Assembly (NCBI GenBank): GCA_028689065.1
Contig: JAQTWX010000011.1
Location: forward strand, 1 to 35,944
Length of the DNA stretch: 35,944 nucleotides
Source of the DNA: Candidatus Altimarinota bacterium
GTDB taxonomy: Bacteria > Patescibacteriota > Gracilibacteria > BD1-5 > UBA2023
Direction: 5' to 3'
The notes under the pieces are model-generated. The model ran no database searches and was not told where the DNA came from. It was given only the letters and a program-made list of their open reading frames with translations. The position numbers and the translations under genes are program-made. Shown in pieces: positions 16,140 through 32,509 of the stretch (the first letter of the stretch is position 1; each line of letters starts with the position of its first letter).

Positions 16140-16715
16140 ATGATAGAATTTCTCAAAAAAAATATCGAAAATAATCGTTTCGAACTCACAATAGATACAG
16201 GACTTTTTAATTCTCAGATTGTTCTGAAGGCGGCATACAATTTCCTTGACCGAGGATATTTCTTTTTCGGGCTTGATGGAGAAAAAAGTATCACTCTTCA
16301 GTTCACTCCAAAGGAGGGTGTAAAAGAAACTCCTGAAAGCATTATAGGGGATTTTTCTGATGAACTTTTGAGTGTTTTACTCAGAGATATGCTTGAGAAA
16401 GATAATAAAGATATCCGAGAAAAAATCGTCGGTGCTGCTATTGCAAATAGTTTGGATAGTAAAGGCTTTGTTGAGCTCGATACCAATAGAAAACAGGATA
16501 ATATGCAAAATAATCAAATAGACTTCGACAAAGATATTGATGAGATACTTCGAGAAATAGAGAATGATCCAGAACTTAAGATTGATGAAGCCGAAATAGA
16601 GAGAATATTAAAAGAGATAGAAGAGGAGACACAGAGCGAGTTATTAGAGAAAACAACCATTACTTTAGATGTTAATGCTGTTAAAAATGCTAAAGAAAAC
16701 TTTCAAAGTAAATAG
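16140..16715 (+). CDS. hxsD: HxsD-like protein of a His-Xaa-Ser peptide-modification system
   Basis: HxsD is a small protein always found with the radical SAM maturases of His-Xaa-Ser systems; it may present the precursor peptide, but its role is unproven. The first 115 residues fit the family: LKAAYNFLDRGYFFFGLDG, then FSDELLSVLLRDML and IREKIVGAAIANS, corresponding to the usual AAYxFxDR, FxNELLDxxLR and IRxLIxxxA patterns. Family members are about 100 residues; this one has 191. The extra C-terminal part is strongly acidic (many Glu/Asp in FDKDIDEILREIENDPEL and following) and helical. It has no UGA. It is first in the operon and its 3' end overlaps the next small gene by 29 bases. Confidence 0.8.
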   Translation: MIEFLKKNIENNRFELTIDTGLFNSQIVLKAAYNFLDRGYFFFGLDGEKSITLQFTPKEGVKETPESIIGDFSDELLSVLLRDMLEKDNKDIREKIVGAAIANSLDSKGFVELDTNRKQDNMQNNQIDFDKDIDEILREIENDPELKIDEAEIERILKEIEEETQSELLEKTTITLDVNAVKNAKENFQSK

Positions 16716-16887
16716 TGTTCTCTATGGAGAAAAAAATATAGAGCAAATGATAAAAGATTTCTCTGATTTTTCTCTGGATTATAAAGAAGGAATTTTGAAT
16801 ATTTCATGAAATACTGATGAAGAAATCGAAGAGATTTTTCATGAAAGTATGAATTATCTCATTGCTCTCTATAATGAGAATATTTAA
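16687..16887 (+). CDS. small second HxsD-like protein, 66 aa
   Basis: Starts inside the end of hxsD (29-base overlap, different frame), which suggests translational coupling, and stops 24 bases before hxsB. The pattern VNSVLYGEKNIEQMIKDFSDF, followed by strand-forming GILNISG and IFHESMNYLIALYNE, repeats in miniature the HxsD layout of YxxxxIxxAxxxFxD, a beta-hairpin and F-x-N-E-L helix. I therefore read it as a shortened paralogue or partner of HxsD; this is inference. One glycine is UGA, so the standard code would cut it to about 40 residues. Confidence 0.6.
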
Positions 16888-16911
16888 ATCCAAAACCCAA
16901 AAAAACATAGT

Positions 16912-18399
16912 ATGATAAATCTGGAAAAAATAAAAACACTCAAAAGTAATACGGTTGGTTTTTTTCGTTTCAAAAAATTTGATACTGATACGTATCTCAT
17001 TACTAATGATATTGCCAAGTATTCTTTCCTTACAGGAAAAGAATTCTCTGATTTTATCGCAGGGAAGCTCACTTCTGGAGATAAATACGAGGAATTAAAA
17101 TTAGGAAAATTCATCAAAGATGCGAATTATGAACAGGATATGACAATTGGTTTTGCGAAAAAGAATCAATTTCTCGCACATGGTCCAGTACTTCATATTA
17201 TCGTAACAACTCTCAGATGTAATCATAAATGTCAGTATTGTCATGCGGCCGTTGCTCCAATGACAGCCAAAGACATGGATATGACAGAGGAAACAGCAAA
17301 AAAAGTAGTCGATGCTATTTTCTATACTTCTTCTCCTGATTTAACTATCGAGTTCCAATGAGGAGAATCGCTTGTGAATTGGGATATTGTAAAGTATGTC
17401 GTAGAATACGCGGAAATTAAATCTGTTCATCTCGCAAAAAACATCACTTTTGCACTCGTTTCCAATCTCAGTCTCATGGATGAAGAAAAACTTCAATATT
17501 TATTGGATCATAATGTACAGATTTCCACTTCTCTTGATGGTGATGAAGAAACACATAATTTCAATAGAACTTTCAAAGATGGGAACAGTTTCGAAAAAGT
17601 CACCTACTGGATTCGAAGAATAAATACAGAATATGAAAAAAGAGGAATACAGAATAAAGTCTGAGCACTTCTTACTGTTACGAAAAAAACTCTTCCACGA
17701 TATAAAGAAGTGATAGATGCCTATGTAGAACTCGGGCTCGATTCTGTATTTTTGAGACCTCTAAATCCCTATGGTTTTGCTGCTGCAGAATTAGAAAAGC
17801 TCGGGTATACTCCAGAAGAATTTATCGAGTATTATGAGAAATCAATGGATTATATACTCGAACTCAATAAAAAATGAATACATATAAGAGAGAGTCTCAG
17901 TTCCATTTATCTTTCTAAGATACTTACCGATAAGGATCCAAACTACCTCGATGAGAGAAGTCCATGTGGAGCATGTATTGGACAAGTTGCGTACAATTAT
18001 GATGGGAAAATATATAGTTGTGATGAATGACGAATGCTTGCACGAATGGGGGACACTAACTTCCTTATGACGGAAGTACAAGAAACTGGAGAAGAGACAT
18101 ACAAAGAAATGATCGAAAGTGAAATAACAAAAGTAATGGTTCAAGCGAGTACTCTTGATGGACTTCCTGGATACAATGATAGCGTATACAAGCCTTACAT
18201 AGGAGTTTGTCCGATTCATAGCTATAAAACAAGCGGAAGTCTGATTCCAAATTATTCAAAAGACCATAAAAAACTTCTTGATTACGCTGTTCTTGATTTT
18301 ATTTTCCAGAAACTCAGGAATCCAGAAGATAAAGCAGTATTTGAAAAATGGCTCGGAATGGAAAATGCTACAGTAACCAGTCAGTGTGCAGGAATTTAA
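16912..18399 (+). CDS. hxsB: His-Xaa-Ser system radical SAM maturase HxsB
   Basis: Radical SAM enzyme that modifies His-Xaa-Ser repeat precursors; the exact chemistry is not known to me. 495 residues. The N-terminal segment (GFFRFKKF, then YLITNDIAKYSFLTGKEF) is typical of HxsB. The SAM cluster is Cys103, Cys107, Cys110 (CNHKCQYC); GGES at 150-153 replaces GGEP, with UGA for the first Gly. Further family marks are STSLDG, FLRPLNPYGFA, YILELN and AYNYDGKIYSCDEGRMLARMGD. Candidate auxiliary-cluster cysteines are 352, 355, 370, 433 and 492. Four UGA codons (17359, 17662, 17875 and 18028) break the gene in the standard code. The substrate is very probably encoded next door at 18439. A clear HxsC was not found. 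Confidence 0.92.
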
Positions 18400-18438
18400 A
18401 ATAGTACGAATATATTTTTATCTCATAAATTTCTCTGT

Positions 18439-18864
18439 ATGGAACCAAAGAAAAAACTATTTCCAAAACTCAAGAAAAAACTCCGAGGGTTTCTCACTGA
18501 TGAGAGTGGAAAAATAAGCAAAAAAGATGCTCTTGGATTAAGTGTATGAGCTATGTTATTGATGGGGGCGGAAGATGGTTCTGCATATGTTACTGGACAT
18601 GGAAATTCTGCTGGAGTTGGTTGACATGGAAGTATGTCTGTAACAACCGATGGACTTACTACTACTACTAGTACTAGTTGATTTAGCGCTACATCTTCTC
18701 ACGCAAGCGGAATTGTTAATGGGCATTATAGTGGTACTCCTTCTGCAACGGTCAATCCAGGACATTGTAGTGCAGCAGGAACCTGACATGGAAGTCATGG
18801 AAGTCATGGAAGTCATGGAAGTCATGGAAGTCATGGAAGTCATGGAAGTCATGGAGCTTGGTAA
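18439..18864 (+). CDS. hxsA: His-Xaa-Ser repeat precursor protein (HxsA-like), 141 aa
   Basis: Probable substrate of HxsB. The N-terminal leader (1-50) is Lys-rich and then has a hydrophobic helix (ALGLSVGAMLLMG). The core is rich in Gly, Ser, Thr and His and contains His-Xaa-Ser triplets in many versions: HGS, HAS, HYS, HCS (109-111), then seven exact HGS repeats (117-137) and a C-terminal HGAW. The core has 13 histidines and one cysteine. Four glycines are UGA, including the one before the repeat array, so under the standard code only the leader would be seen, and the GAT/CAT repeats look like a meaningless Thr/Ser/Met frame on the other strand. The gap from hxsB is 39 bases. His-Xaa-Ser systems are a predicted peptide-modification family; the product is unknown. 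Confidence 0.88.
18787..18849 (+). repeat. seven tandem 9-base repeats coding for His-Gly-Ser
   Basis: Seven identical copies of CATGGAAGT, followed by a diverged eighth start (CATGGAGCT). Identity at every third base shows recent expansion by slippage. The array lies wholly inside hxsA, in frame. Confidence 0.95.
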
Positions 18865-18890
18865 TTTCTTAATTTTTCAAATATACTCTT

Positions 18891-19517
18891 ATGAACAAAA
18901 GAAATATTTTTATATTTACCTCTCTCGTAATATTCTTTTTTTTAATTTTTTCGTTTCTTTTTTTTAAGAAAGAAGATATTTTTTCTTGATCAGTATCTAA
19001 TTCTTGATCAGTATCTAATTCTTGATCAGTATCTAATTCTTGATCAGTATCTAATTCTTGATCAGTATCTAATGTTGATATTTGTAAAAAAGAAATTTTG
19101 AATAAAAGATATCTTAATAAATATCAAGAATATGGCATTAGCTATGTATATTATAATGAATTAATCGATTTTCCTACAGATACTATCAAAAATTATGATG
19201 AGTTAGTAAATTTAAGTAAAGGTGAGTGTGAGGCTTTGTCGGGTGATATTAAAATCGCTTGCGAGAATTTTAAGAAAAATAATAACCTAAAAGAAGATAC
19301 TAATATTTTCTGTTGAGATAAAAATCTTGATGATAAATTAAAAGTTTCAAAGATGTTAATATCAAATATAGATTGTGGATTTCCTAAAGACCTTAGAAAT
19401 ACTAAAACTATATATTTTTATCATTACTTTAAAACACATCCTACAGTATACAAAAATTTATTGGATTCGCTCTTTATAGAAGAGAGTTGTAAAAACTTCC
19501 CATGAAAAAAAGATTAG
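18891..19517 (+). CDS. membrane-anchored protein with five Ser-Gly-Ser-Val-Ser-Asn repeats, 208 aa
   Basis: No family recognised. One N-terminal membrane segment (about residues 7-25, FIFTSLVIFFFLIFSF) anchors it, followed by KKEDIF and then five exact six-residue repeats SGSVSN (residues 32-61), each with a UGA glycine. The C-terminal 145 residues are polar and helical with six or seven cysteines and several aromatic residues, and probably lie outside the cytoplasm. It sits 26 bases after hxsA, and its end overlaps the next radical SAM gene by 16 bases, so the two are likely translationally coupled. It could be a second substrate of the locus or a surface receptor; this is inference. A standard-code reading loses the whole N-terminus. 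Confidence 0.65.
18984..19073 (+). repeat. five perfect 18-base tandem repeats
   Basis: Unit TCTTGATCAGTATCTAAT five times without a single difference, in frame with the membrane-anchored protein and coding SGSVSN when TGA is glycine. Each unit contains TGATCA, a palindrome. Perfect identity means very recent expansion or active turnover. Confidence 0.95.
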
Positions 19518-20425
19518 AATTTCATATTACCACTATTTGTAATCAGTCATGTATATTTTGTAGTGAGTCCGATAGAATGGAAACTCATAAAAAATATCCT
19601 ATATCTTTTATACAAATAAAGATTATTCTGATAGATAAGAAAAAAAAAGGATTCTCGCATGTTACTTTTCTATGATGAGAGCCAACATTATATCCAAATT
19701 TTGAAGACCTATTGGTTTTTACTAAAAAGCTGGGATATAAAATCATGCTCATTAGTAATGGATTTTGATTACAAACAAAAGAGAATGCATTTAAAATTCT
19801 TTCTAATATAGACGAGATTTCATTATCTATACACTGATATAATAAGGAGACATTATCGTATCAAACATGAAATAATATTGCATATAATCAATTACTTAAG
19901 GTTATTGAAAATATAACAGAGTTTAATTATTTGCATAAAAATAAAGTTTATTATTACGCTAATATAGTTATCAATAGCCTTAATTATTCTCATGTATTAG
20001 ATATAATAAAATTTATTCAAAATACAAAGTATCCTTGGAATCAATTACTTGTTTCATATATAGCACCGGAATGAAGGGCACTTAAAAAGTATAAAGAATT
20101 ATCCTTCGATTTTAATAATTTTAAGGCGTATATTCCTGAAATCATATCTTTATGTAACTCTATTAAAATAAAGATTAATTTTTTTTGAATTCCTCTATGT
20201 GTCTTGTGAGAAGATAATATTGTTTATTCCAATGATACACATTGGACAGAGAGAAATACTATCGAAAGGTTTACTACAAAAGATGGAAAAGTTACGCTTA
20301 TAGATATATATTCTCCTGATTCATCGAGGGAAAGAAGTTTTATAGACAAGTGTATAACCTGTAAATGGATAAAAAACCCATGTACTTGAATTTTTAATAA
20401 ATATCTTGAGTATTACAAATTTTAA
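19502..20425 (+). CDS. radical SAM protein, 307 aa (array member 1)
   Basis: Radical SAM enzyme of unknown substrate. The SAM cluster is Cys13, Cys17, Cys20 (CNQSCIFC), GGEP lies at 58-61 with both glycines UGA, and the C-terminus has CITCKWIKNPCTG, a Cx2Cx6CxG motif that probably binds an auxiliary iron-sulfur cluster or helps position the substrate. It overlaps the repeat membrane protein gene by 16 bases, so that protein is a candidate target or partner. Glycine is written mainly as UGA. Close relatives with this C-terminal motif are common in peptide and sugar modification clusters; I cannot assign a named subfamily. It does not show the hallmarks of HxsC. Confidence 0.85.
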
Positions 20426-20495
20426 TATATAAATGCAAAGAAACCTATTTTTATTCTCAGTCTAGCTAGTTAAAATATCCTTTTATATAAAATAT

Positions 20496-21419
20496 ATGGT
20501 TGTACTGTATATCATGACATATGATTGTAATCTGCGATGTAAATATTGCGATATAATAAAAACAAAAAATAATATATCGAGTAACGTAATAGAACAATCA
20601 TTTAAATTCATATCTAGTTTGAAATTTAAAATTGAAGAGGTTAAATTTTTTTGATGAGAGCCTCTTTTGATGAAGAAAGATATTGAATACATTATCAATA
20701 ATATACCATTAAAAGAAGTTGATTATTTTATAACTACCAATGCTACTTTAATTGATGATAGGTTCATGGATTTTGCAAAAGAACATGATATTAAACTCAC
20801 TTTTAGTATAGACTGAGATAAGAATACAACCTCTTTGAATAGAAAGGAATCATGAAAAAAAGAGGTATATGATATAGTCTTAAAAAATACTATACAGTAT
20901 TCTCCATTTATCAGAATCAATATGGTTATCACATCAACTACAGCCAAATATATGGTAGAAAATTTTAATTTTCTTTATGCTCATTGAGTAAGAAATTTTA
21001 ATTTTTTACCAGAATATTGGTCTAACTGGACAAAGGAGTGATTAAAGGATTTGGCTTTGGGCTTTAAGGAAATACTTGAACTATATTCAAATTGAAAAAA
21101 ATTCTCATTAATTAATATTGAAAATTATCAGGAACTCCCTTTCTTTAACTTATGAATAATAATTGATACGGATGGAAAGATATATTGAACGAATCATATA
21201 TTGTCATGACATTTTTGAAAACATAAAAAAGAACTAGAAATTTGAGATGTATTTAATGGATTAAAATTTGATATCTCCGATAGGGGGTTTGCTCAACAAT
21301 ATATAAAAAAATTAGATTTTATAAATCATACTAACTACAGTAGTTCAATAATTAGATCGGTTGAATATATAGATAGTATCTTGAATAACTTCGTAAATAA
21401 CTTTCAAAATCTAAAATAA
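20496..21419 (+). CDS. radical SAM protein without C-terminal cluster cysteines, 307 aa (array member 2)
   Basis: SAM cluster Cys11, Cys15, Cys18 (CNLRCKYC) and GGEP at 53-56, both glycines UGA. SIDG and TTNATL follow, giving a normal radical SAM barrel. The region IIIDTDGKIYGTN looks like a SPASM-type segment in which the first cysteine is gone, and after Cys18 there is no further cysteine, so no auxiliary cluster is expected. This sets it apart from the other array members. 12 of its 16 glycines are UGA, an extreme ratio. It stands alone between two AT-rich gaps of about 70 bases. Substrate unknown. Confidence 0.8.
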
Positions 21420-21485
21420 TATGAGTAAATTATTTAGACAAAGATAGATATGTTATACACACCCTTCCTATTTTAATATAAATTT

Positions 21486-22343
21486 ATGAAGAAAATTCTC
21501 ATTACTGGAGCAGATGGAATGCTCGCTCATGATTTCATACAATCTCAAAAAAATAAATTTCAGATTATTTGATTTGATAAATCAGTCTTGGATATAACTG
21601 TATTACACAATATTGATACTATAGTTCAAAATGTAAAACCAGATATCATACTTAATTGTGCTGCGTATCTAAATGCTGAGAAAGCAGAAAAGGAAGAAAA
21701 AAAAAGGAATTTTGATGTTAATGCACTCTGAGTATTTAATCTTGCAACTATTGCAAAAAAATATCAAAAAGATTTTATTACACTTTCAACCGATTATGTT
21801 TTCGATGGTCAAAAAAGAAATGGGTATAATGAAACGGATATTCAAAATCCACTCAATAATTATGGGCTTGCAAAGTATCTTGGAGAAAAACTTGCCACTG
21901 AAATTTATAGCAATACTCTTATAATAAGAACCAGTTGGCTTTATGGTGGTGGAAAAAATTATGATAATTTTGTTAATACAATAGTATGACTTTTAAATAA
22001 CGAGAAAGAAATAAAGATTGTAAATAATCAATTTTGATCTCCAACTTATACAATGGATTTATCAATGGCTATTTGAGAGATAATATCCAATATAGAATTT
22101 TTACGATGAAAAATATTTCATTTATCTAATGATATTTCTAATAACGGAATTAGTTGGTTTGATTTTGCTGATAGAATCTGTAAAATCAAGAAGAAATGAG
22201 CACAATTAGTTCCTTGTTCTAGTGAAGAATATGAATCTGGTGACATTAGTCGACCAAAATTCAGCAAACTGAATAATAATAGTTCATTTCTATTACGTAA
22301 TTGGGAAGAAGGGCTGAAAGAATATTTAAAAAGACTTGAATAA
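21486..22343 (+). CDS. RmlD-like dTDP-4-dehydrorhamnose reductase / extended SDR
   Basis: NAD(P)H-dependent reductase or epimerase of nucleotide sugars, 285 residues. The Rossmann motif ITGADGML (6-13), NCAAYLNAEKAE, STDYVFDG and the catalytic YGLAK (about residues 121-125) followed by GEKL are typical of RmlD, which makes dTDP-L-rhamnose by reducing dTDP-4-keto-rhamnose. Later RTSWLYG and the SPTYTMDL segment fit too. The other rhamnose genes (rmlA, B, C) are not in the window, so the true substrate may be another 4-keto sugar. Many UGA glycines. It lies 22 bases before the putative glycosyltransferase. Confidence 0.82.
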
Positions 22344-22365
22344 CTTCATAAAAATTATTGACTCT

Positions 22366-23541
22366 ATGTGATTGCTTGATTTAGAAATAAATACTATATC
22401 TCAAATTGATATTTTGAGAAGATTTTGTAAAAATGTTTTGTCAAAAACATTCAGTATAAAAAATAGTAGAGTTTTATTAATAATGAGTGAACCAATTTAT
22501 TTTAATTTATATCTCAATAAGATACTTTTTTTATACTTTCATATATTAAAAGTTGATTTAGATATAGTTTATCTAGAAAATCCTGATTTATTTTTTGATG
22601 TAGAAAAAGAGAAACATAAAGAAATTAAAATTTCAGATTTTGATAGTTTTTATTCTAATAGTAAGGTTTCAGAAATCCTATGATATAAATTAAACTTCAA
22701 TTTTTTAAGTTTAGATGAAATATATAACAATGACTCCTATAAACTAATAGTTGTAAGTTCAGTATCGTTTGCTTATAATTTTGATTTTCTTTTAAAAAAG
22801 ATTTCTTGAGTAAAAAAAGTTCATTTTTTCCTTAATGATGGCTGGTGAGCAAAAAAAGAATTTCCTGATATTATTTGAAATAAGTTGATAGAAAAACTTG
22901 CAAAGTATGATGAAAAATCATCTAAGAATAAAAAGATGTATGTTGATCTATCTCAAAGAGAATGATTTATTTTTTCTAATCTTTTTTCTCTTTTATATTT
23001 TAAAAATATCAATTTCAAGTCAAAGATCTTTGATTTACTTGCTGTTGGTAGACCTAAATGAAGGGATTTTGAATTAATTAAATTTATTTTAACTAAAAAT
23101 GCTACGATCAAAGTTTTATTTCTAGTTAATAATGAAGCAGATTTCAATACCATTAAAAATATGTTTATTTGATATAAATGAGTCAAGATTTGATTTAATG
23201 GACTTTCTTATGAAAATTTTTTTAAACTTATTTCATTAAGTAAAATAGTAGTTAATTGTTTAGCTCCTTGATTTAGAAGTAGTTTATGAATAACTTCATT
23301 GCAAATAGTAGCATCCACTAGTTCTATTATGTTATCTAAAAAAAATATTTTTTATACTAAGTGTATCAAAAATTGAATAGATTGATTTTTATATAGGAAT
23401 AAATATGAATTTAATAGACTTGTTAATGATATTTTATTCAAAGTAAACATGGAAGATTTAGAAAAAATTGCTTTAAATAGAAAAAAAAGATTTGACGAAT
23501 CTATGTATCTTGAAAAGATAATTGAAAGCTTTATTTCCTAA
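22366..23541 (+). CDS. probable glycosyltransferase, GT-B fold, 391 aa
   Basis: The start is ATG TGA (Met-Gly). The C-terminal half resembles GT4-like enzymes: FDLLAVGRPKGRDFELI, then YENFFKLISLSKIVVNCLAPGF, GITSLQIVAS and NGIDGFLYRN, the usual order of donor-binding elements including a loop like NGxxGxL. The N-terminal half is divergent and has no clear acceptor motif; the expected E-x7-E motif is not obvious, as a Gln replaces the second Glu in SLQIVAS. With the RmlD-like gene just upstream it could attach a deoxy sugar to a peptide, protein or lipid. The family call is moderate, the acceptor unknown. Most glycines are UGA. Confidence 0.55.
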
Positions 23542-23551
23542 ATAGAAATGG

Positions 23552-24892
23552 ATGGAAATTTTAAGAAAATTACAAAATAGAGAAATAGACCAATTGGTAT
23601 TGCGTGTTTGAAAAAAATGCAATTTTAAATGTCTTTTTTGTAATGTTTGAGATAATGAAAAAGATATTAAAGATAAATACTCCGAAAGAGAATTAGTAAA
23701 AGAATTTTTTTCTAAATTATTAACTTGTAATCTGGAGAATAAAGAAATTTTAATTTCCTTATCATGATGAGAACCAACTCTGTATAAAAAAGATATCTTA
23801 TTTATAGTAAAGTTTATCCATAAGTACTTTTTAGATAAGGATATTAAATTTTATTTAGAATTACAAACTAACGCTACTCTTATTGATTCATATTTTTTAG
23901 AAGAATTAAAAAAATACTGACTAGTTCATATTTTAATATCATTTCATTCAAACGATAGAAAAATTTTTGAAGAATTAATCTGAGTAGATTATTTAAATAT
24001 CAAAAAAGCAATCAATGGTATTGATTTAATTCAGAAATCATGAATTAGTGCATCATTTAATATTATTTTTAATAAAATCAACTATGTAGCCATTCCTGGA
24101 TTAATCGATTTTTTAGTACAAAGATTTCCAGAAATACAAGACTATAATATAGGATATTTTCAACCAAATTGATATTGAGAATTAAATTTCAAAAAATTGT
24201 TTGTAAGAGTAAAAGAATTTTTACCTTACTATCTAAGATCTATAAAAATTTTAGAAAATAATAATAAGAAAATATTACTTCACTTCACTTGATTGCCAGT
24301 TTGTTTATTATGAAGCTTCAAGAAATACTCATTGGAATATAATAATAATTTAGAATTAAGGAAGGTAAAAAGTAATGCAAAAGACTTTCTTATTACATCT
24401 TTAAATAATTGTAATAAATCCTTATTAAAATCTTGTTATCGATGTACATATAACTATTTATGTAGTTGAATATGGAAGAATTTTTCAGAAACAGATATAT
24501 TAGTAAAGCCACATAAATATTATTGAGTGGATAAATTAAAAGATAGATTTATTGATAAATGATTTTTACTTTATAAACATCAGACTATAATCTGATCTGA
24601 TTATTTGGATATTTCAAATATTGTTAAAAATAGTATTAAAAAATGAATTCCTAAAATTACACTTTATATTAAAGATGATTCTTATGTTTTATCAAAAGAA
24701 ATACCTTACTGAATTAATAATATTCAATTTTTTAAGGAATCGAATACCGCAAACTATGCATATATAATTAATAATATTCAATTCTTTGAAGACAATAGAA
24801 TTAATCTTGATATATATATCGAAAATATAAAATCCAAAGAAGAAACAGTCTTGGAAAAAAAATGTAACTTTCTAAATTTTATTTTACTCTAA
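23552..24892 (+). CDS. radical SAM protein with C-terminal extension, 446 aa (array member 3)
   Basis: SAM cluster Cys23, Cys27, Cys30 (CNFKCLFC), GGEP at 72-75 with two UGA glycines, QTNATL and ISFHSN on the barrel. GYFQPNGYGELN near the middle matches the QPNGYAKIN segment of array member 5 (26595-27644), so these two belong to one subfamily. The probable auxiliary motif is CYRCTYNYLCSG. About 120 extra residues follow with alternating strands and helices (ITLYIKDDSYVLSKE, NNIQFF repeated twice) of no recognised domain; they may bind the substrate. It ends one base before the next gene. The substrate is unknown. Confidence 0.82.
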
Positions 24893-24893
24893 A

Positions 24894-25640
24894 ATGAGAG
24901 CCTTAATCTTTTGATGATGAATCAATGCTCAGAAATATATTAATTTATTATTTGATATTTGATACAATATAGATATTGTTACAAATAAGACATTGTTTGT
25001 TTCTGAAAAAATAAATAATTCATATTTATATGAAGAATTTTTACGACAAAAAATAAATTATTCTGTTTTTGATATAATTATAGTTTCCGTAAGACCTATA
25101 ACGAATCAAACAGAAATTATAAAATATTTAATTGGATTGGAATTAGAAAATAAAATTATTTTAGAAAAACCTGTTACATATGATTTGCAATTATTAAATG
25201 ATCTATTGAAACATGAAAATATAACCTATAATATAGAAGAATTATACCTCTCAAGTGAGTTACTTAAGTTATTTGATAACAAACAAAATATTAAGGTAGA
25301 TACGATTAATAAAGATTATAACATTGAACATGCAATAGGCATATTTTTATTAGATAAATCCTTTAAGAATTATTTAGATAAAATCATTTTTAATTTTAAG
25401 AAAACAAACGATTCAAAACTTAATTATGATTTGTATTTAAATGATAATTTACTTATATCATGCAAAGACTGAGTTATTTTTCATAATTCGAATGTTTCTT
25501 TAAATTTAAATTCATTTAAAAGTTTTGAATTTAATTTAAAGCTTTTATTGGCAAATAAAAATTTGAATTTTCTATTCAAATATAATTTTCTTTTATTAAA
25601 AAAATCTTTATTAAAAAATCAAGTAGAAATTGATTTATAA
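24894..25640 (+). CDS. GFO/IDH/MocA-like NAD(P)-binding protein, 248 aa
   Basis: Starts one base after the preceding stop. The N-terminus LIFGGGINAQKYINLL is a Rossmann dinucleotide-binding loop in which three consecutive UGA codons encode GGG. IIVSVRP and IILEKPVTYDLQLLNDLL give the EKP motif of the GFO/IDH/MocA family, whose members oxidise or reduce sugars and sugar nucleotides. The C-terminal part is short (248 against the usual 330-370 residues) and lacks an evident catalytic HxxE-type motif, so it may be a reduced or non-catalytic member. Cotranscription with the radical SAM gene is nearly certain from the spacing. Confidence 0.6.
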
Positions 25641-25650
25641 ATTTCAGTCT

Positions 25651-26589
25651 ATGACTTATAAAAGATTGGAGACTTATGTTTGATGGACATGTAATCAAAA
25701 ATGTACCTATTGTATGGAATTTCCAAACATGGAACAAGTATGGAATAAAAAAGTGTCAAAATATGATATTTTAAAAAAACTTATCAAATACAAAAAACTT
25801 GGGTATAATCATGTTACTTATCTCTGATGAGAACCATTCATACAGCCTGTTTTTTTGGACGCGCTCGTATTATGAAAAAAACTTCAGTATACTATTCTTG
25901 TTACAACGAATTGCACGACTCTTCATATAGATAAACAAGCGAGTAAATTTTTGCCATATATAGATGAGCTAATATTGTCTGTGGAAGCCATAGATAAAGA
26001 AAAACAACAACTCATATCAAGAACTCAAAATTATGTTCATTGGGAGAGTGTGTTTGAGAATATAAAGAAATACTGGAAATGAAGTTTTCTCAAAGCAAAT
26101 ATTGTTATAACTCAGGATAATAAGGATATCCTCTTTGATTTAGTAAAATATTTAAATGATAAATGAATTAAAAGAATAGCTATTACCTATCCAGACCTTA
26201 CTCTTAAATATTATGGAATACAACATACTCTCGAGAGAATTGCTCCAAAATATTCTGAATGTATTAATCAAATTGTCGAAATAATTCATTACTGCAATGT
26301 TCAGAAAATAGAATTAAAGCTTCCAGATTTTCCTTTTTGTATTTTCCCAACAGATAAAGTAGATTTGTATCTTAAATTAACAGATGATTATGATTTTGCA
26401 ACTCGATTGAAAATTCAACATACCGAAGAAAAGTTAGATAGGTGAGATCTTACGGACGAGAGTATATTACCGAGAAATAGACGACATATTTCAAAATGTG
26501 GTAGATGTAAATATGAACATAAATGTTGGGGACCATCAGTGTTTTATGATGAGCTCTATGGACTTAGTGAAATTAATCCTATCTTTTAG
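25651..26589 (+). CDS. radical SAM protein, 312 aa (array member 4)
   Basis: SAM cluster Cys14, Cys18, Cys21 (CNQKCTYC), GGEP at 59-62 with two UGA glycines, VTTNCTTL, and a C-terminal CGRCKYEHKCWGP (Cx2Cx5CWGP). The CWGP ending recurs in a group of radical SAM enzymes from peptide-modification contexts, but I cannot name a substrate. Of about 12-13 glycines most are UGA. The gap to the preceding gene is 10 bases and to the next 5, so it is in the same transcript. Confidence 0.85.
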
Positions 26590-26594
26590 ACCAG

Positions 26595-27644
26595 ATGATA
26601 TCAAAAAGCTGAAATGCTGAAATAATCTACATCAATGAAATAATAAGAGTTACATATAAATGTAATTGGTCTTGCAAATTTTGTAATGTTTTGAAGACGA
26701 ATAATTTTTGAGAAAACGATGTATCCTCAAAAGAGATTATTTACAAGATATTGTCATTAACAAAAAAATACAAGAAGGAGCAACTTGGAAAGTTGATACT
26801 TTCTTTTTCTGGATGAGAACCAACATTAAATAAAAATTTATTGCACTATATTCGATTAGCAAAAAGTATTGGAGTTTGAATTATTGAAGTACAGACAAAT
26901 GGAACTAATTTGTTTAAAAACAAGACATTGGTAAATGATTTGATTGATGCATGACTTGATGAAATATTTCTTGCCCAACATTCAGGAGATGAGATAATAA
27001 ATAAAGAACTCGGAGTATTTTATAGGATATCTGATTTTGTCGAGTGGGTACAATATGTAAAAAAACATCAACTTCATAAAAAGGTATCTATCTATCTGAA
27101 CATTGTAGTAACGAAGATAAATCTCTTTCAAGTGTATTCATATATTCAAATGCTTATCGATATTTGATTTACAGATCTGATTCCCAAGAGAGGGCATTCT
27201 GAAATGATAAATACTCATAAGATTTCTTTTGGTTTCTGTCAACCAAATGGATATGCCAAAATTAACAAGAATCTAGTGTTATTAGATTTTAATGAGAACC
27301 AGATAAATGAAATTCATAGAATAGTTCAGCTCTGTAAACATAATAATATCTTGCCAGATTTTCATTTTACTTCACCTCCGCTTTGTATTCTCGATTACTC
27401 AGAATACAACCTTGAATATGAAAGGTTAAAAAAATTAGAAAATGATGAAAAAAATCATAGGGTTAATGAATGAAACCTGGAAGCATATAAATGGTTATGG
27501 AAGGAAAAAATCAAATTTGATTGATGTAAAAAATGTTGTCATAATAATTATTGCTTAGGATTTTATAAGAATTGGGTAGAATTTGTTTGAGAAAAATATA
27601 CAAAAGAAATGATGGAAAAATTTTTAAATAAAGAAAACCATTAA
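26595..27644 (+). CDS. radical SAM protein, 349 aa (array member 5)
   Basis: SAM cluster Cys23, Cys27, Cys30 (CNWSCKFC), GGEP at 73-76 written GGA-UGA, VQTNGT, then FCQPNGYAKIN, shared in part with array member 3, suggesting duplicated genes of one subfamily. The C-terminal motif is CKKCHNNYCLG (Cx2Cx4CxG). The start at 26595 is supported by an uninterrupted frame with MISKSGNAEIIYINE before the barrel; there is no Shine-Dalgarno. Substrate unknown. Confidence 0.83.
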
Positions 27645-27680
27645 GTATTAAATTAATTCTTAATAATCTAAAAAGATTAA

Positions 27681-28955
27681 ATGCCAAATCAAACTAATCT
27701 TCTCTCAAAAGAAAAAACTCAGGCGCAGAATCGCGTTTGGGTCCGTATCGCTTCGGCTTGTAACAACAAGTGTATTTTCTGTCTGGATTCCGATGCGCAG
27801 AATGGAACTTTTGTTGAGGAAATAGAGGTGAGAAAACAGATACAAAATGGATTCAAAGAGTGATACGAAAATCGAGTGATTATCTCGGGATGAGAGGCGA
27901 GTATCAATCCGAAATTTCCAGAATACATACGGTATGCGAAAGAGATTTGATATGATCGAGTACAAACCGTAACCAATGGTAATACTTTTGCTTCAGCGGA
28001 TTTTTGCAAGAAAGTGTTTGATGCTGGATTGGAAGAAGTGACATTCTCGTTTCATGGGCACAATCCCATGCTTCACGACTATCTAGTTGCAACTCCTGGG
28101 GCTTTCAAGAAATCACTCAAGTGACTCATTTTTATCAAAAAACATTATCCGAATATCATTATAAATGTGGATGTTGTGGTGAATAAAATTAATGTCGCAT
28201 TTCTTCCGGAAATCGTGAAGTTTTTTATGAAGCTCTGAGTATACGAATTTGATCTCCTTCAGATTATTCCTTTTGGACGAGGCTTCAGCGAGAATAAGAA
28301 TAAACTCTTTTATGATATAGAGAAAAATATAAAACCTCTACAAGAAACTTGGAAATTATCCAGAATCCCCGGAATGTATATGTGGACGAACCGCTTCCCT
28401 GCCGAGGCATTTGTTGGATTTGAGGACCTTATCCAAGATCCACGAAAGATTAAATGAGAAGTTATGTGAGAAGCATATGATATGTTTGAGACATTCATTA
28501 AATCTGAAGGGGAAACAAAACCGAATTGTTTTTGAGAAGCATGCGAATGCTGTTTCCAGAATCAGTATTGTCATGATTTCATCAAAAATAGAGAAACAGC
28601 TAAAATATCGAACCCCGAGAAATATGAAATTATTTCTGGCGAACAATTCCCGAGTCAGGTGTATGAAAAGTATGGAAAGACCAAAGAAGATTTTATACAA
28701 TACCTCAAATCAATAGATAAACCACTTATAAATATCCCAAAGTGTCTTGAATGAAGTGGTTTATATCAAACATACAACGATATAAAGGAATGAAAGACTC
28801 TTGAGGATTATACATACAAATACATTGGGAATCTGTATCGGAAAAAGGCTTTGTTTTGTAAGGATTGTACATATAATGATACATGTGATTGAATACATAT
28901 CAATTTTATTCGAAGCTACGGATTTAATATTCTCCAACCAGTAAAAACTCCATAA
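27681..28955 (+). CDS. radical SAM protein with extra cysteines, 424 aa (array member 6)
   Basis: SAM cluster Cys27, Cys31, Cys34 (CNNKCIFC). The second motif is GGEA (70-73) instead of GGEP. FSFHGHNP, NVDVVVNKIN and LLQIIPFGRGFSEN mark the barrel. It has two cysteine-rich parts: a CFGEACECCFQNQYC segment (about residues 280-295) and a C-terminal CKDCTYNDTCDGI, so two auxiliary metal sites are possible. GC content and GGA use are higher than in members 1-5, suggesting that this gene and the next have a different history from the 20-25 kb part. The gap before the next gene is 4 bases. Substrate unknown. Confidence 0.85.
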
Positions 28956-28959
28956 AATT

Positions 28960-29904
28960 ATGGCAAATATTTGATATATTCAGGTGAATCGCTACTGCAA
29001 CAATCAGTGCCATTTTTGTTCGAACCCGAGTAATGGAAATAATATTACTTACGAAAGATGAGTAGAGATTATAAATGATTTTGTCGATAAAAATTACGGT
29101 GGAATAATTTTTACAGGATGAGAGCCGACACTTTCTCCCGATCTGCCCAAATGGATACAATATAGTACATCCATAGGTATGGAGTGTCGGATTATTTCAA
29201 ATGGGATGATGTGTTCCAATTCTGATTATGTAAAAAAACTCAAAGATTCTTGACTTTTGCTTATACATTTTTCACTCTATTCTCATATTCAGAAAGTTCA
29301 TGATTTTCTCACCGATACTCCAGGAAGCTATAGTAAGCTATTGCAATCTATCCAAAATGCTTTGAAACTCTGAATACGGGTACAATTAAATTGTGTTATC
29401 AATAAATATAATCAGGATCATCTTGATAAGACAGTGAAGTGTATCGCTAAAATTTTTCCACAGATTCAACATTTTGTATGGAATAATCTTGATCCTTTGA
29501 TGATGAGAAAAACAGATGTGGCACTCTCTACCTTGCCAGATTTTGATATTGCCTCAAAATCTCTTGGGGAAGCTATGAGATTTCTGGAAGAAAATAATAA
29601 AACCTTCAGAGTAGAAAGATTCCCTATTTGTTTTATGAGATGATTTGAGTGGGCTTCCACCGAAACTAGAAAGATAGTAAAAGACGAGGAACGGATCGTA
29701 CATTTTCTTGATAATAGAGAGACCATACGACAATCTTGAGAACATTGGACACATGACAAACTTGAGGAGTGTAAAGAATGTAATCTTAGTCCTATATGTT
29801 CGGGGGTTTATGAACGAGAAAAATATTACAATTATGTGAAAGTTATTCCACAAAAAATTTCAGAACAGGAGCTACAAGATATCATTTCAAAGATCAAATT
29901 ATAA
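28960..29904 (+). CDS. radical SAM protein, 314 aa (array member 7)
   Basis: SAM cluster Cys13, Cys17, Cys20 (CNNQCHFC), GGEP at 53-56 written GGA-UGA, IISNGM, HFSLYSH, and the C-terminal CKECNLSPICSGVYERE (Cx2Cx5CxG). It shares the CNNxCxFC pattern with array member 6 and begins 4 bases after it, so the two probably work together or form a complex. It converges on the prepilin-peptidase-like gene with only 11 bases between the stops and no visible terminator. Confidence 0.85.
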
Positions 29905-29915
29905 AAATTGGATAA

Positions 29916-31277
29916 TTAATTATAAAAAGTTTTTAGATACTCCATTATTATACTTGTAATATTTCAGATTATCTGATCTCATAGAAAATAAGTAATGAGA
30001 AATCCAAGAAAAATATATCCTCAAAAGGCAAAAGTTTTTAGAATTTTTATGGTAGTAATCTCATTAAAGTGAGGAGTTTTTTCTTTCTTGTGATGTACAT
30101 TTGTAATCTTGTATATTTTTACAAGCATCCTTTTTGTTTCATTATCAATAGGATTACTCATATGAGTGAAATACTCTTTTGGATTCGGGTACAATAATTT
30201 CCTTCTTTTTTGTGTTATTTCTTTTATCGAAGCATTGTCCAAACAGAATCCAAGAGGGGATTGTTCTCCAAATATCTTTGCAAGATATTCTTTATCAACT
30301 ATATCTCCTGCTTTTAGGTTTTTTATATCGATAAAATCCTGTTCGGCGAGTTGAAATGTTATTTTATAACTATATTGTAATATCTTAAAGATAATATATA
30401 TTCCTATATAAAGTGTAAAAATCCTTATGAGATACAAGTGTATTTCACTTGGATTCATTCTGTATTCATAAACTATAAAACCGATTAGAACAACAAAAAG
30501 CAGACCGATAAGAGCAAAATCTAAAGTAGTGTCGTTTTTTATTCGAGTCTCCTGTTTTAATGACTCTTTTAGTTTGTTTATCAAGATTCGTATTCCATAA
30601 ATCACCCCGATAGATACTCAAATTAAAGCGAGTAGTATATAGGAGGTATAATTTTGAAGATACTCAATGGCTTGTAAATAATAGCTACTTTCCTTGATAT
30701 AAACAAAGATATATAATCTTGAGAGACGTATGCTGACAAAAAATATCAAAAAGAGTAAAATCCATTTGAGAAGTTTCAGAAAAATCACATTCTTGTAGAA
30801 ATTTCCATCGCCGTGTTTCAAAAAAGCCACAGATTTTTCTTTTAAGTCCATATATATATTCTCATATAAACTTTTTGCATATTTCCAGTTAAATAGACAT
30901 TTTCAGAAGTAGAAATAAAGAAAATAGAGGAATAAATAGATAAGAGTGAGAAGTGCAATATTTCCTATAAGAGGAATAATTCCAGTATTTGGGATAAAAA
31001 GAGCAAGAACAAGGAGATATTTTGCGTCTCAGGCAGACCAGATTCAAAAATAGTACAAAACAAAAGATATAACTAAAGTGAGAATAATCTGTCAGAAAAA
31101 CCAGAAAATATTTATTTCACCAGAAACAGAAAATAAATACGTGTAGTAGAAGGGAATAAGAAAGAGAAGATACCCAAGGAATTTATTTGGGATTTTTTTA
31201 TACCGAATATCGGATAATATTATCTGGTAATTGATAAATAAAAAGGGGATTGCCAAGAGATATAAATAATATTGCAT
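29916..31277 (-). CDS. prepilin-peptidase-like (A24) membrane protein with long C-terminal extension, 453 aa
   Basis: One frame under code 25; it falls into three pieces otherwise. The first 150 residues look like an A24 aspartic prepilin peptidase: Asp23 in SDIRYKKIPN and Asp84 in WSAGDAKYL, the two catalytic aspartates, in a bundle of hydrophobic segments. Bacterial and archaeal A24 enzymes cleave leader peptides of pilin-like proteins at the membrane. The remaining 300 residues hold four or five more membrane helices (for example FLKLLKWILLFLIFFV and LDFALIGLLFVVLIGF), a soluble piece (AEQDFIDIKNLKAGDIV), and a last hydrophobic helix reached only by reading TGA at 30021 as glycine. No pilin gene is near. 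It might cleave the exported products of this locus; that is inference. Confidence 0.72.
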
Positions 31278-31339
31278 AATTCTGGTTTAGTATATACTTT
31301 CTCCGTGCAGTATATGTTTATTTTGGTAAATATCAATGT

Positions 31340-32509
31340 ATGGAAATGGAGTATTATGTTCTCGGAAAGAAAGATAATCAGATGGTATCATCCTATTTTG
31401 ATAGATATTACCTATTGCTTATATCCTATCTTGAAGCACTCTCAAAAAAAGGGATTTTATCGCAAGAAATAGGGGAATTGCTTTCCACGAGAGAATCTGA
31501 ACTTGATTCAGAATGCTCCCTAAAGGGGCAAGCTATAGAAAAGAGAGATTTTATACTCTCTCCTGATCAGTCATCCATTATTAATGTTCTTTACAAAGAA
31601 CTTATAGAAGGGAAGTCTCAATATCTTTGAGATTATAAAAGATATGAACAACAATTAAAAAAAGAGATAGATTTATTTTTGAACGGAAAACATAACGAAC
31701 TTACTATGAGCCAAGGAGCTCATATCTATGGAACACAAATAAAACTTACTATTCTCGATAATAATCCTTATAATCAGATGGAGGCACATCCAGATCATCA
31801 AGCAACAGGTTGAGTGATGTGATATGGACAAAAGTCAGAAGAGGAATGGTTGCGAATATATGAAAAAACTTTTGGATTATTGAAAGAGATAGATATAGGA
31901 ACATATACCGAATTGAATCAAATTATAAAAAAAATTGTTCCTCTTTGAACGTCTTTTTGAACGCATAATTCTGCTTCCTATAAAGAATGCGTAGGACATC
32001 TTTATATGGGATATACAATCGATTCTGATATGCCCGAGATAAATAACCTTGAAGCAATTATACATGAGTCCTCTCATAACAAACTCAATCTCATTCTGCA
32101 ATTCGACCCGATTGTACTTAATGATAAACAGGAAAAATACTATTCTGCCATCAGACCGGATGCTCGCCATATTCATGGAATATTTCTCGGATATCATGCT
32201 TTTGCGCCTACTATGTACATAATCATGAAAGCATATTTGAATGGCTATCTCTGAAATCATAAACAATGGTTTGAAAAAATAGTACTTTACTACATCAAGA
32301 CGAAATTTCTCCAGAAAATGATCAAGAAATATGCTATTCTGACAGAGCTTTGAAAAGAGATAAGCGAGGAAATAGATTACGTGATAAAGGAAATGGACGT
32401 GCTTATAAAGAAACTAAATCCAAGTTCAGAAGTTTTAAAAAGAGCCAAGGAAAGACAGGAACAACATTTTCAGGAAGTAAATAGTAAATATCCGTATTTG
32501 GAATACTAA
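31340..32509 (+). CDS. HExxH protein resembling aKG-HExxH-type peptide beta-hydroxylases, 389 aa
   Basis: The motif IHESSHNKLNLIL places HExxH at His242-His246, followed by YYSAIRPDARHIHGIFLGYHAFAP (split here: YYSAIRPDARHIHG at about 268-280, then LGYHAFAP). This order, HESxHxKL, then Y-S-x-x-R-P-D-x-R-x-x-x-G and a HxF helix, is what I know from the HExxH-motif putative peptide-modification family (alpha-ketoglutarate-dependent beta-hydroxylation of residues in RiPP precursors). It suggests His242/His246 and a later residue as iron ligands. It lies across a 62-base gap from the divergent prepilin-peptidase-like gene. An ordinary zinc protease is the alternative, but the flanking motif argues against it. 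Confidence 0.72.

Follow-up and report, generated by a model that had tools for sequence, protein, structure and literature searches.

The window analysed here, a whole contig of 35,944 nucleotides, was found to carry a gene island at 16140-32509 that is best read as a variant His-Xaa-Ser (Hxs) system producing a peptide that bears many modifications and is destined for export (probability about 0.68). Gene content, fixed island ends, co-occurrence and co-variation were observed directly and form the basis of this reading, from which the assignment of enzymes to sites, the export and the chemistry are inferred. The left end of the island consists of four + strand genes encoding HxsD, an HxsD-like protein, HxsB and a His-Xaa-Ser precursor, in the positions given by a preliminary description of this DNA; that description stopped at 18864, and the island runs 14 kb further, through seven more radical SAM genes to an A24-type peptidase gene and a gene for an aKG-HExxH-type hydroxylase. 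All eight radical SAM proteins (P0003 and P0006-P0012) contain a CxxxCxxC motif and a radical SAM domain, and six of the eight contain C-terminal CxxCx5-6C motifs. The toolkit is unusually large for so small a genome, with eight radical SAM enzymes here and up to nineteen in relatives, and the concentration in one island of 8 of the 14 radical SAM domains encoded by the 1.04-Mb genome suggests that the product matters to the lifestyle of the organism.

Reading TGA as glycine (code 25) is supported at conserved glycines of HxsB. Of the four in-frame TGA codons in this gene, three correspond to alignment columns with Gly in 50/50, 40/45 and 47/50 HxsB relatives using table 11 (background for this comparison, 6.6%), and the fourth to a variable column. 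TGA is also found within the GGE motif of HxsB and of the other island radical SAM genes. The precursor gene contains four TGA codons, and no table-11 open reading frame covering it was found, as expected from the earlier claim that the precursor is lost under the standard code. An explanation of the locus as chance or as an annotation artefact of TGA read as Gly could appeal to the low-complexity repeat and to these four codons, but is refuted by the TGA codons on conserved HxsB glycines and in the GGE motif, and by the conservation of the precursor family in 44 genomes. Standard-code annotation breaks the island genes, and such loci may therefore be undercounted.

HxsD (16140..16715, + strand, 191 aa) scored 51.7 bits with TIGR03976, marginally over the cut-off of 50, and comprises a core matching the model and an acidic C-terminal extension (family A1, 39 rows); in its AF2 model the core has the order b-b-a-b-b-a(long) and the C-terminal part is of low confidence. 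The gene for the HxsD-like small protein (16669..16887, + strand, at most 72 aa) overlaps the end of hxsD and scored 24.1 bits with NF038315, below the cut-off of 41; the protein adjoins HxsB in 39/41 loci, and its AF2 model (pLDDT 90) has the order b-a-b-b-a. The order of strands and helices predicted for HxsD and its partner differs from that of the PqqD-like winged helix of a RiPP recognition element (RRE). Close structural relatives of the two were sought by comparison of predicted structures, which returned middling matches only. The top matches of the HxsD core and the small partner were Rpb11-like (Z 7.6) and KH/Pcc1-like (Z 8.8), and no function was drawn from these folds because the scores are about level with those that unrelated models reach. 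HxsB (P0003; 16912..18399, + strand) scored 497.3 bits with TIGR03978 (cut-off 370) over profile positions 3-466 of 466, in agreement with the full-length match claimed earlier, and has CxxxCxxC at residue 103 and GGE at 150; among solved structures it matched only 5wgg/5why, a radical SAM protein.

The precursor (18439..18864, + strand) is HxsA3/A4-like, with sub-threshold scores of 32.5 bits for HxsA4 (NF038313, cut-off 55) and 24.4 bits for HxsA3 (NF038309, cut-off 65), and is laid out as a leader, a hydrophobic stretch, a HASGIVNGHYSGTP box, an (HGS)7 array and an HGAW end. It contains 11 H-x-S triplets compared with a shuffled mean of 2.1 (11 was reached in 0/20,000 shuffles), and its DNA contains 7.7 perfect copies of the 9-bp unit CATGGAAGT. 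The gene is single copy in the genome. Within the precursor family (A3, 36 rows), 35/36 members match HxsA3 and 30/36 match HxsA4 (E up to 1), the box residues N94 and G95 are each conserved in 35 rows and H96 in all 36, and the C-terminal HGS array often ends in RW, QW or GWC. Export of the precursor appears likely, because the end of the conserved leader is hydrophobic and carries an AxA-like site (present in 33/37). The FLTDESG segment of the leader resembles a Flp/Tad pilin; a pilin reading was tried and rejected, as no Pfam pilin family was matched at E up to 10 by any of the 36 members. In 42 H-x-S candidates of other phyla, a few of which are false hits, the VNGH(Y/F)S box was not found, and it is by this comparison the clade-specific part of the precursor. 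The precursor form had been regarded as new, which holds for this box, although HxsA2, A3 and A4 variants were already present in NCBIfam. Three genomes (G049, G041 and G019) retain HxsB and have Gly-Ser repeats in place of the HGS array; these Gly-Ser-rich precursors indicate that the array is dispensable in some species. Gly-Ser repeats instead of the HGS array, with HxsB kept, were noted in the precursors of loci L037, L063 and L068.

Directly after the precursor lies a gene for a membrane-anchored protein with an (SGSVSN)5 linker (18891..19517, + strand), which has no family match and includes an 18-bp tandem repeat at 18983-19073. A protein with a transmembrane anchor follows the precursor immediately in about 13/23 islands. 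The gene at this place often encodes 200-350 aa with an N-terminal membrane anchor, its position being kept while the sequence varies; such anchored proteins were seen in the window and in G032, G047, G039, G056, G043 and G049, and further in G019, G076, G001, G057 and G027.

The remainder of the interior (all + strand) alternates radical SAM genes with other cargo. P0006 (19502..20425) is HxsC-like, with NF038332 (HxsC4) as its best match at 80.5 bits (cut-off 500), and has CxxxCxxC and C-terminal CxxCx6C motifs; P0007 (20496..21419) is PapB-like (NF047865, 125.8 bits, cut-off 340), and a gene of its type comes after a P0006-like gene in several islands. These are followed by an open reading frame for an SDR-like protein (21486..22343, identity judged by eye), by P0013 (22336..23541, no family match), by the HxsC-like P0008 (23552..24892; TIGR03977, 82.7 bits, cut-off 267.9; C-terminal CxxCx5C) and by P0014 (24894..25640), a possible Gfo/Idh-type oxidoreductase whose match to PF01408 (18.7 bits) is below the cut-off of 24. 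P0009 (25630..26589) is HxsC4-like (NF038332, 58.6 bits, below cut-off) and P0010 (26595..27644) is a further radical SAM protein; the two have 89% and 85% identity, respectively, to their counterparts in a sister genome. The interiors of some islands include a DegT aminotransferase gene. NifH-like and NifD-like nitrogenase-family genes were noticed inside some Hxs islands of these reduced genomes (L084, 13620-15664; L074, 10542-12434). The radical SAM families of the islands are distinct from each other rather than near copies, and a C-terminal CxxCx3-7C motif is present in 130/245 island radical SAM proteins other than HxsB, compared with 0/365 controls.

The locus had been called complete-looking with HxsC missing. 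No protein over the TIGR03977 cut-off of 267.9 was found in any of 79 genomes, the best match in the window being 111.7 bits, and to this extent the claim stands; the locus is longer than was thought, however, and for several of its downstream genes the best sub-threshold match, or one of the high ones, is to TIGR03977 or HxsC4; these appear to be diverged HxsC-like genes. Two of these are P0011 (27681..28955, + strand), which is HxsC4-like (NF038332, 128.5 bits, cut-off 500) and has two C-terminal CxxCx5C motifs, and the adjacent P0012 (28960..29904, + strand), which gave the 111.7-bit match to TIGR03977. The orthologous pair adjoins the peptidase gene or sits at most two genes away in most of 17 islands examined. 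Matches to P0012 (E 1e-40 or better) were obtained in 29/79 genomes, most at 58-87% identity, with those in G029 and G057 at only 31-32%. Pairs of the P0011-P0012 type also occur near HxsB in Parcubacteria, Buchananbacteria, Elusimicrobia and Myxococcota. We propose that the pair fills the HxsC role and that P0012 may be the functional HxsC of the lineage.

At the far end, an A24 (type IV prepilin) peptidase-like membrane protein (hereafter PP; 29916..31277, - strand) scored 26.0 bits with PF01478, just under the cut-off of 26.5, and the motifs D.K.KkIPN and AGDaKY are conserved in its family. It is followed by an aKG-HExxH-type peptide beta-hydroxylase (P0016, hereafter HE; 31340..32509, + strand) that scored 52.3 bits with TIGR04267 (cut-off 40) and whose family conserves an HESSH motif; no solved structural relative of P0016 was found. 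In 12 genomes, members of a family of large secreted proteins (~900 aa; e.g., L059, 17055-19847) were observed beside HE at the island end, and no Pfam family was over cut-off for them.

Among 194 relatives searched, HxsB was over cut-off in 45, nearly all within the same order, and the HxsB proteins of the group, whose named records are Candidatus Gracilibacteria, form one clade (SH-aLRT 98). The claim of an Hxs-type modification locus in a code-25 bacterium was supported, HxsB and HxsD being over the cut-offs of their models when code-25 translations were searched (the precursor, the D-like protein and the HxsC-like proteins were below theirs) and the D-d-B-precursor order recurring in relatives; the organism itself had been described as new for Hxs, and HxsB is in fact widespread in its order, as a single clade. 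In a set of 79 genomes, HxsB was scored as any match under 1e-50, truncated matches included, giving 48 genomes with HxsB and 31 without. With p values that treat genomes as independent and ignore kinship, the precursor was present in 43/48 versus 1/31 (p 1.6e-15), HxsC-like genes in 41/48 versus 2/31 (p 9e-13), PP in 32/48 versus 2/31 (p 4.5e-8) and HE in 26/48 versus 2/31 (p 9e-6). Several of the 16/48 HxsB genomes without a PP match are fragmented. Radical SAM genes with no H-x-S protein beside them had been named as a potential objection, which for the most part does not hold, 43/48 HxsB genomes having the precursor; at least genus g9 (G014 and G023), with HxsB and no recognisable H-x-S precursor, is a real exception, and the other HxsB genomes without a precursor include G002 and G020, whose HxsB contigs are truncated, and G068. 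G029 was considered as a case of a precursor without HxsB and was set aside, its contig running for only ~250 bases beyond the precursor and stopping at the expected start of HxsB.

The islands have fixed ends, D-d-B-precursor on one side and PP-HE on the other, the latter often followed by the large secreted protein. In the 16 islands with both ends on one stretch, the span from HxsB to PP is 11-37 kb and contains 2-19 radical SAM genes, including HxsB. Identity to the sister genome G001 is 88% for D, 89% for B, 85-89% for P0009-P0012, 68% for PP and 78% for HE; no orthologues of P0005-P0008, P0013 or P0014 were seen in the fragments of G001, where the island is split over three contigs and some gene absence may reflect assembly loss (the SDR-like gene at 21486-22343 was outside this comparison). 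A clean empty site was sought in the sister G004, where what adjoins RNase HII is not the island; the right flank is rearranged and no clean junction was obtained. Carriage of HxsB by phage was also considered, and none was confirmed in viral contigs.

Longer HGS runs accompany larger numbers of HxsC-like genes (Spearman 0.61, p 9e-5, n = 35, genomes taken as independent with no tree correction), and the same trend is seen inside genera g3, g14 and g17, where 0-2 HxsC-like matches were obtained in species whose HGS runs are short or absent and 3-5 in species whose runs are longer. P0012 was matched in 23/28 genomes with HGS runs of at least three, compared with 0-1/7 genomes with shorter runs (p 1e-4 to 2e-3; the split at three was chosen after the data were seen, with no tree-based correction); the other five genomes with runs of at least three have no P0012 match. 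Because HxsB stays where the array is Gly-Ser only, the sequences suggest that HxsB works elsewhere than on the HGS array, perhaps on the box. Within the lineage, differences in array length and enzyme set between related species are natural experiments, from which the enzyme acting at each site can be inferred.

Under the favoured reading, the precursor comprises a leader of ~49 residues, the conserved HASGIVNGHYS box and the HGS array. HxsD and its small partner would dock the leader on HxsB, and HxsB would act at the conserved box, because both HxsB and the box remain in genomes whose precursors lost the array. The P0011-P0012 pair would take the role of HxsC and act on the HGS array. Species-specific changes would come from the interchangeable radical SAM genes of the interior, and the HExxH enzyme would hydroxylate side chains; removal of the leader and export are suggested by the A24-type peptidase and the signal-like hydrophobic stretch. 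As to the chemistry, the leading guess, although a doubtful one, is a carbon crosslink from His to Ser like those of three-residue cyclophanes. The H-x-S spacing fits the triceptide motif, a crosslink of an aromatic ring to a carbon of the third residue. A precedent is the radical SAM/HExxH pathway described in PMC12636437, which hydroxylates His and Asp in a cyclophane peptide. Candidate roles of the product are a surface coat, metal binding, or a weapon against host or rivals.

It is not quite an even bet that the island works combinatorially, a fixed precursor and HxsD/HxsB core and a fixed HxsC-like pair, peptidase and hydroxylase being joined by an exchangeable radical SAM cassette (islands of up to 19 in all) that is swapped per species, each species thereby making its own heavily modified surface or secreted peptide. 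Against the favoured reading stand the HxsC-like and precursor scores below cut-off, the lack of a recognisable precursor in genus g9, the five genomes with HGS runs of at least three and no P0012 match, the Gly-Ser-rich precursors, the borderline A24 match and the 16/48 HxsB genomes with no PP match; the interior enzymes may also have substrates other than this precursor. Such a possibility is taken furthest if Hxs comprises only D, d, B, the precursor and P0011-P0012, with the interior radical SAM, SDR, oxidoreductase and nitrogenase-like genes belonging to unrelated pathways (e.g., glycan or cofactor synthesis) in a variable region. The SDR-like gene, the weak Gfo/Idh match, the DegT aminotransferase and NifH/NifD-like genes of some islands and the differing interiors of sister genomes would fit, but the HxsC-like genes are nearly confined to HxsB genomes and increase with HGS run length, and a SPASM/twitch-like C-terminal motif is present in 130/245 island radical SAM proteins other than HxsB, which makes this arrangement rather unlikely.

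We consider it more improbable still that the peptide is a bacteriocin-like toxin for host or rival cells, with the variable membrane protein as immunity factor and cargo turnover as an arms race. A fast-changing membrane-anchored protein right after the precursor in about 13/23 islands, interiors that are not alike in sister species, and the episymbiotic lifestyle attributed to the lineage in PMC8406219 are consistent with a weapon; no family of toxins, dedicated exporters or immunity proteins was recognised, however, and the peptidoglycan-binding domain of canonical HxsA suits a role in the cell envelope. That same domain (PG_binding_1), together with the His-rich arrays, the A24-type peptidase at the island end and the ~900-aa secreted protein beside HE in 12 genomes, would favour a His-rich metal-binding or adhesive surface protein for which modifications tune stability only, HxsB being the sole essential maturase and the other enzymes redundant paralogues. 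This account was given similarly low odds: the Gly-Ser arrays of G049, G041 and G019, with HxsB kept, indicate that metal binding by His is not a universal role, and the radical SAM families are distinct, not near copies.

Compared with the canonical HxsDBCA system of Aeromonas salmonicida plasmid 4 (NC_009349), the island has the HxsD and HxsB families and an adjacent His-Xaa-Ser repeat protein in common, on the same strand and with the same order at the D-B start. HxsC lies right after HxsB in A. salmonicida, whereas the diverged HxsC-like genes of the island are up to 10 kb away; the A. salmonicida HxsA has HRS/HSS repeats and a peptidoglycan-binding domain, and the island adds a D-like protein and a precursor with another leader, the VNGH box and the HGS array. 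The NCBIfam families HxsA3, HxsA4 and HxsC4 (NF038309, NF038313 and NF038332) resemble the island in that members of the precursor family match the first two and P0011 is best matched by HxsC4, although the window precursor and P0011 are below their cut-offs. Judged by these models, the system is a variant of Hxs: its A and C parts score below curated cut-offs, and it lies in an unusually large radical SAM island with a changing interior. Hxs loci with multiple radical SAM genes in Parcubacteria, Buchananbacteria, Elusimicrobia and others (L107, L108, L121 and L133, radical SAM genes counted within 10 kb only) share D-(d)-B-precursor, several radical SAM genes and a P0011-P0012-type pair. In ChlBH, as cited in PMC12636437, a radical SAM and an aKG-HExxH enzyme are fused and both types act on one peptide, with His hydroxylation; the radical SAM and putative HExxH enzymes of the island are encoded by separate genes. 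The literature searched contained no Hxs product and no published work on Hxs or radical SAM peptides of Gracilibacteria.

Two further occurrences were recorded. In Myxococcota (L138, L153, L158 and L169), the vicinity of HxsB includes HExxH hydroxylase genes that are relatives of P0016. In the plasmid collection, HxsB relatives of <60% identity were present on 313 Klebsiella plasmid records, and most matching records are predicted to be conjugative.
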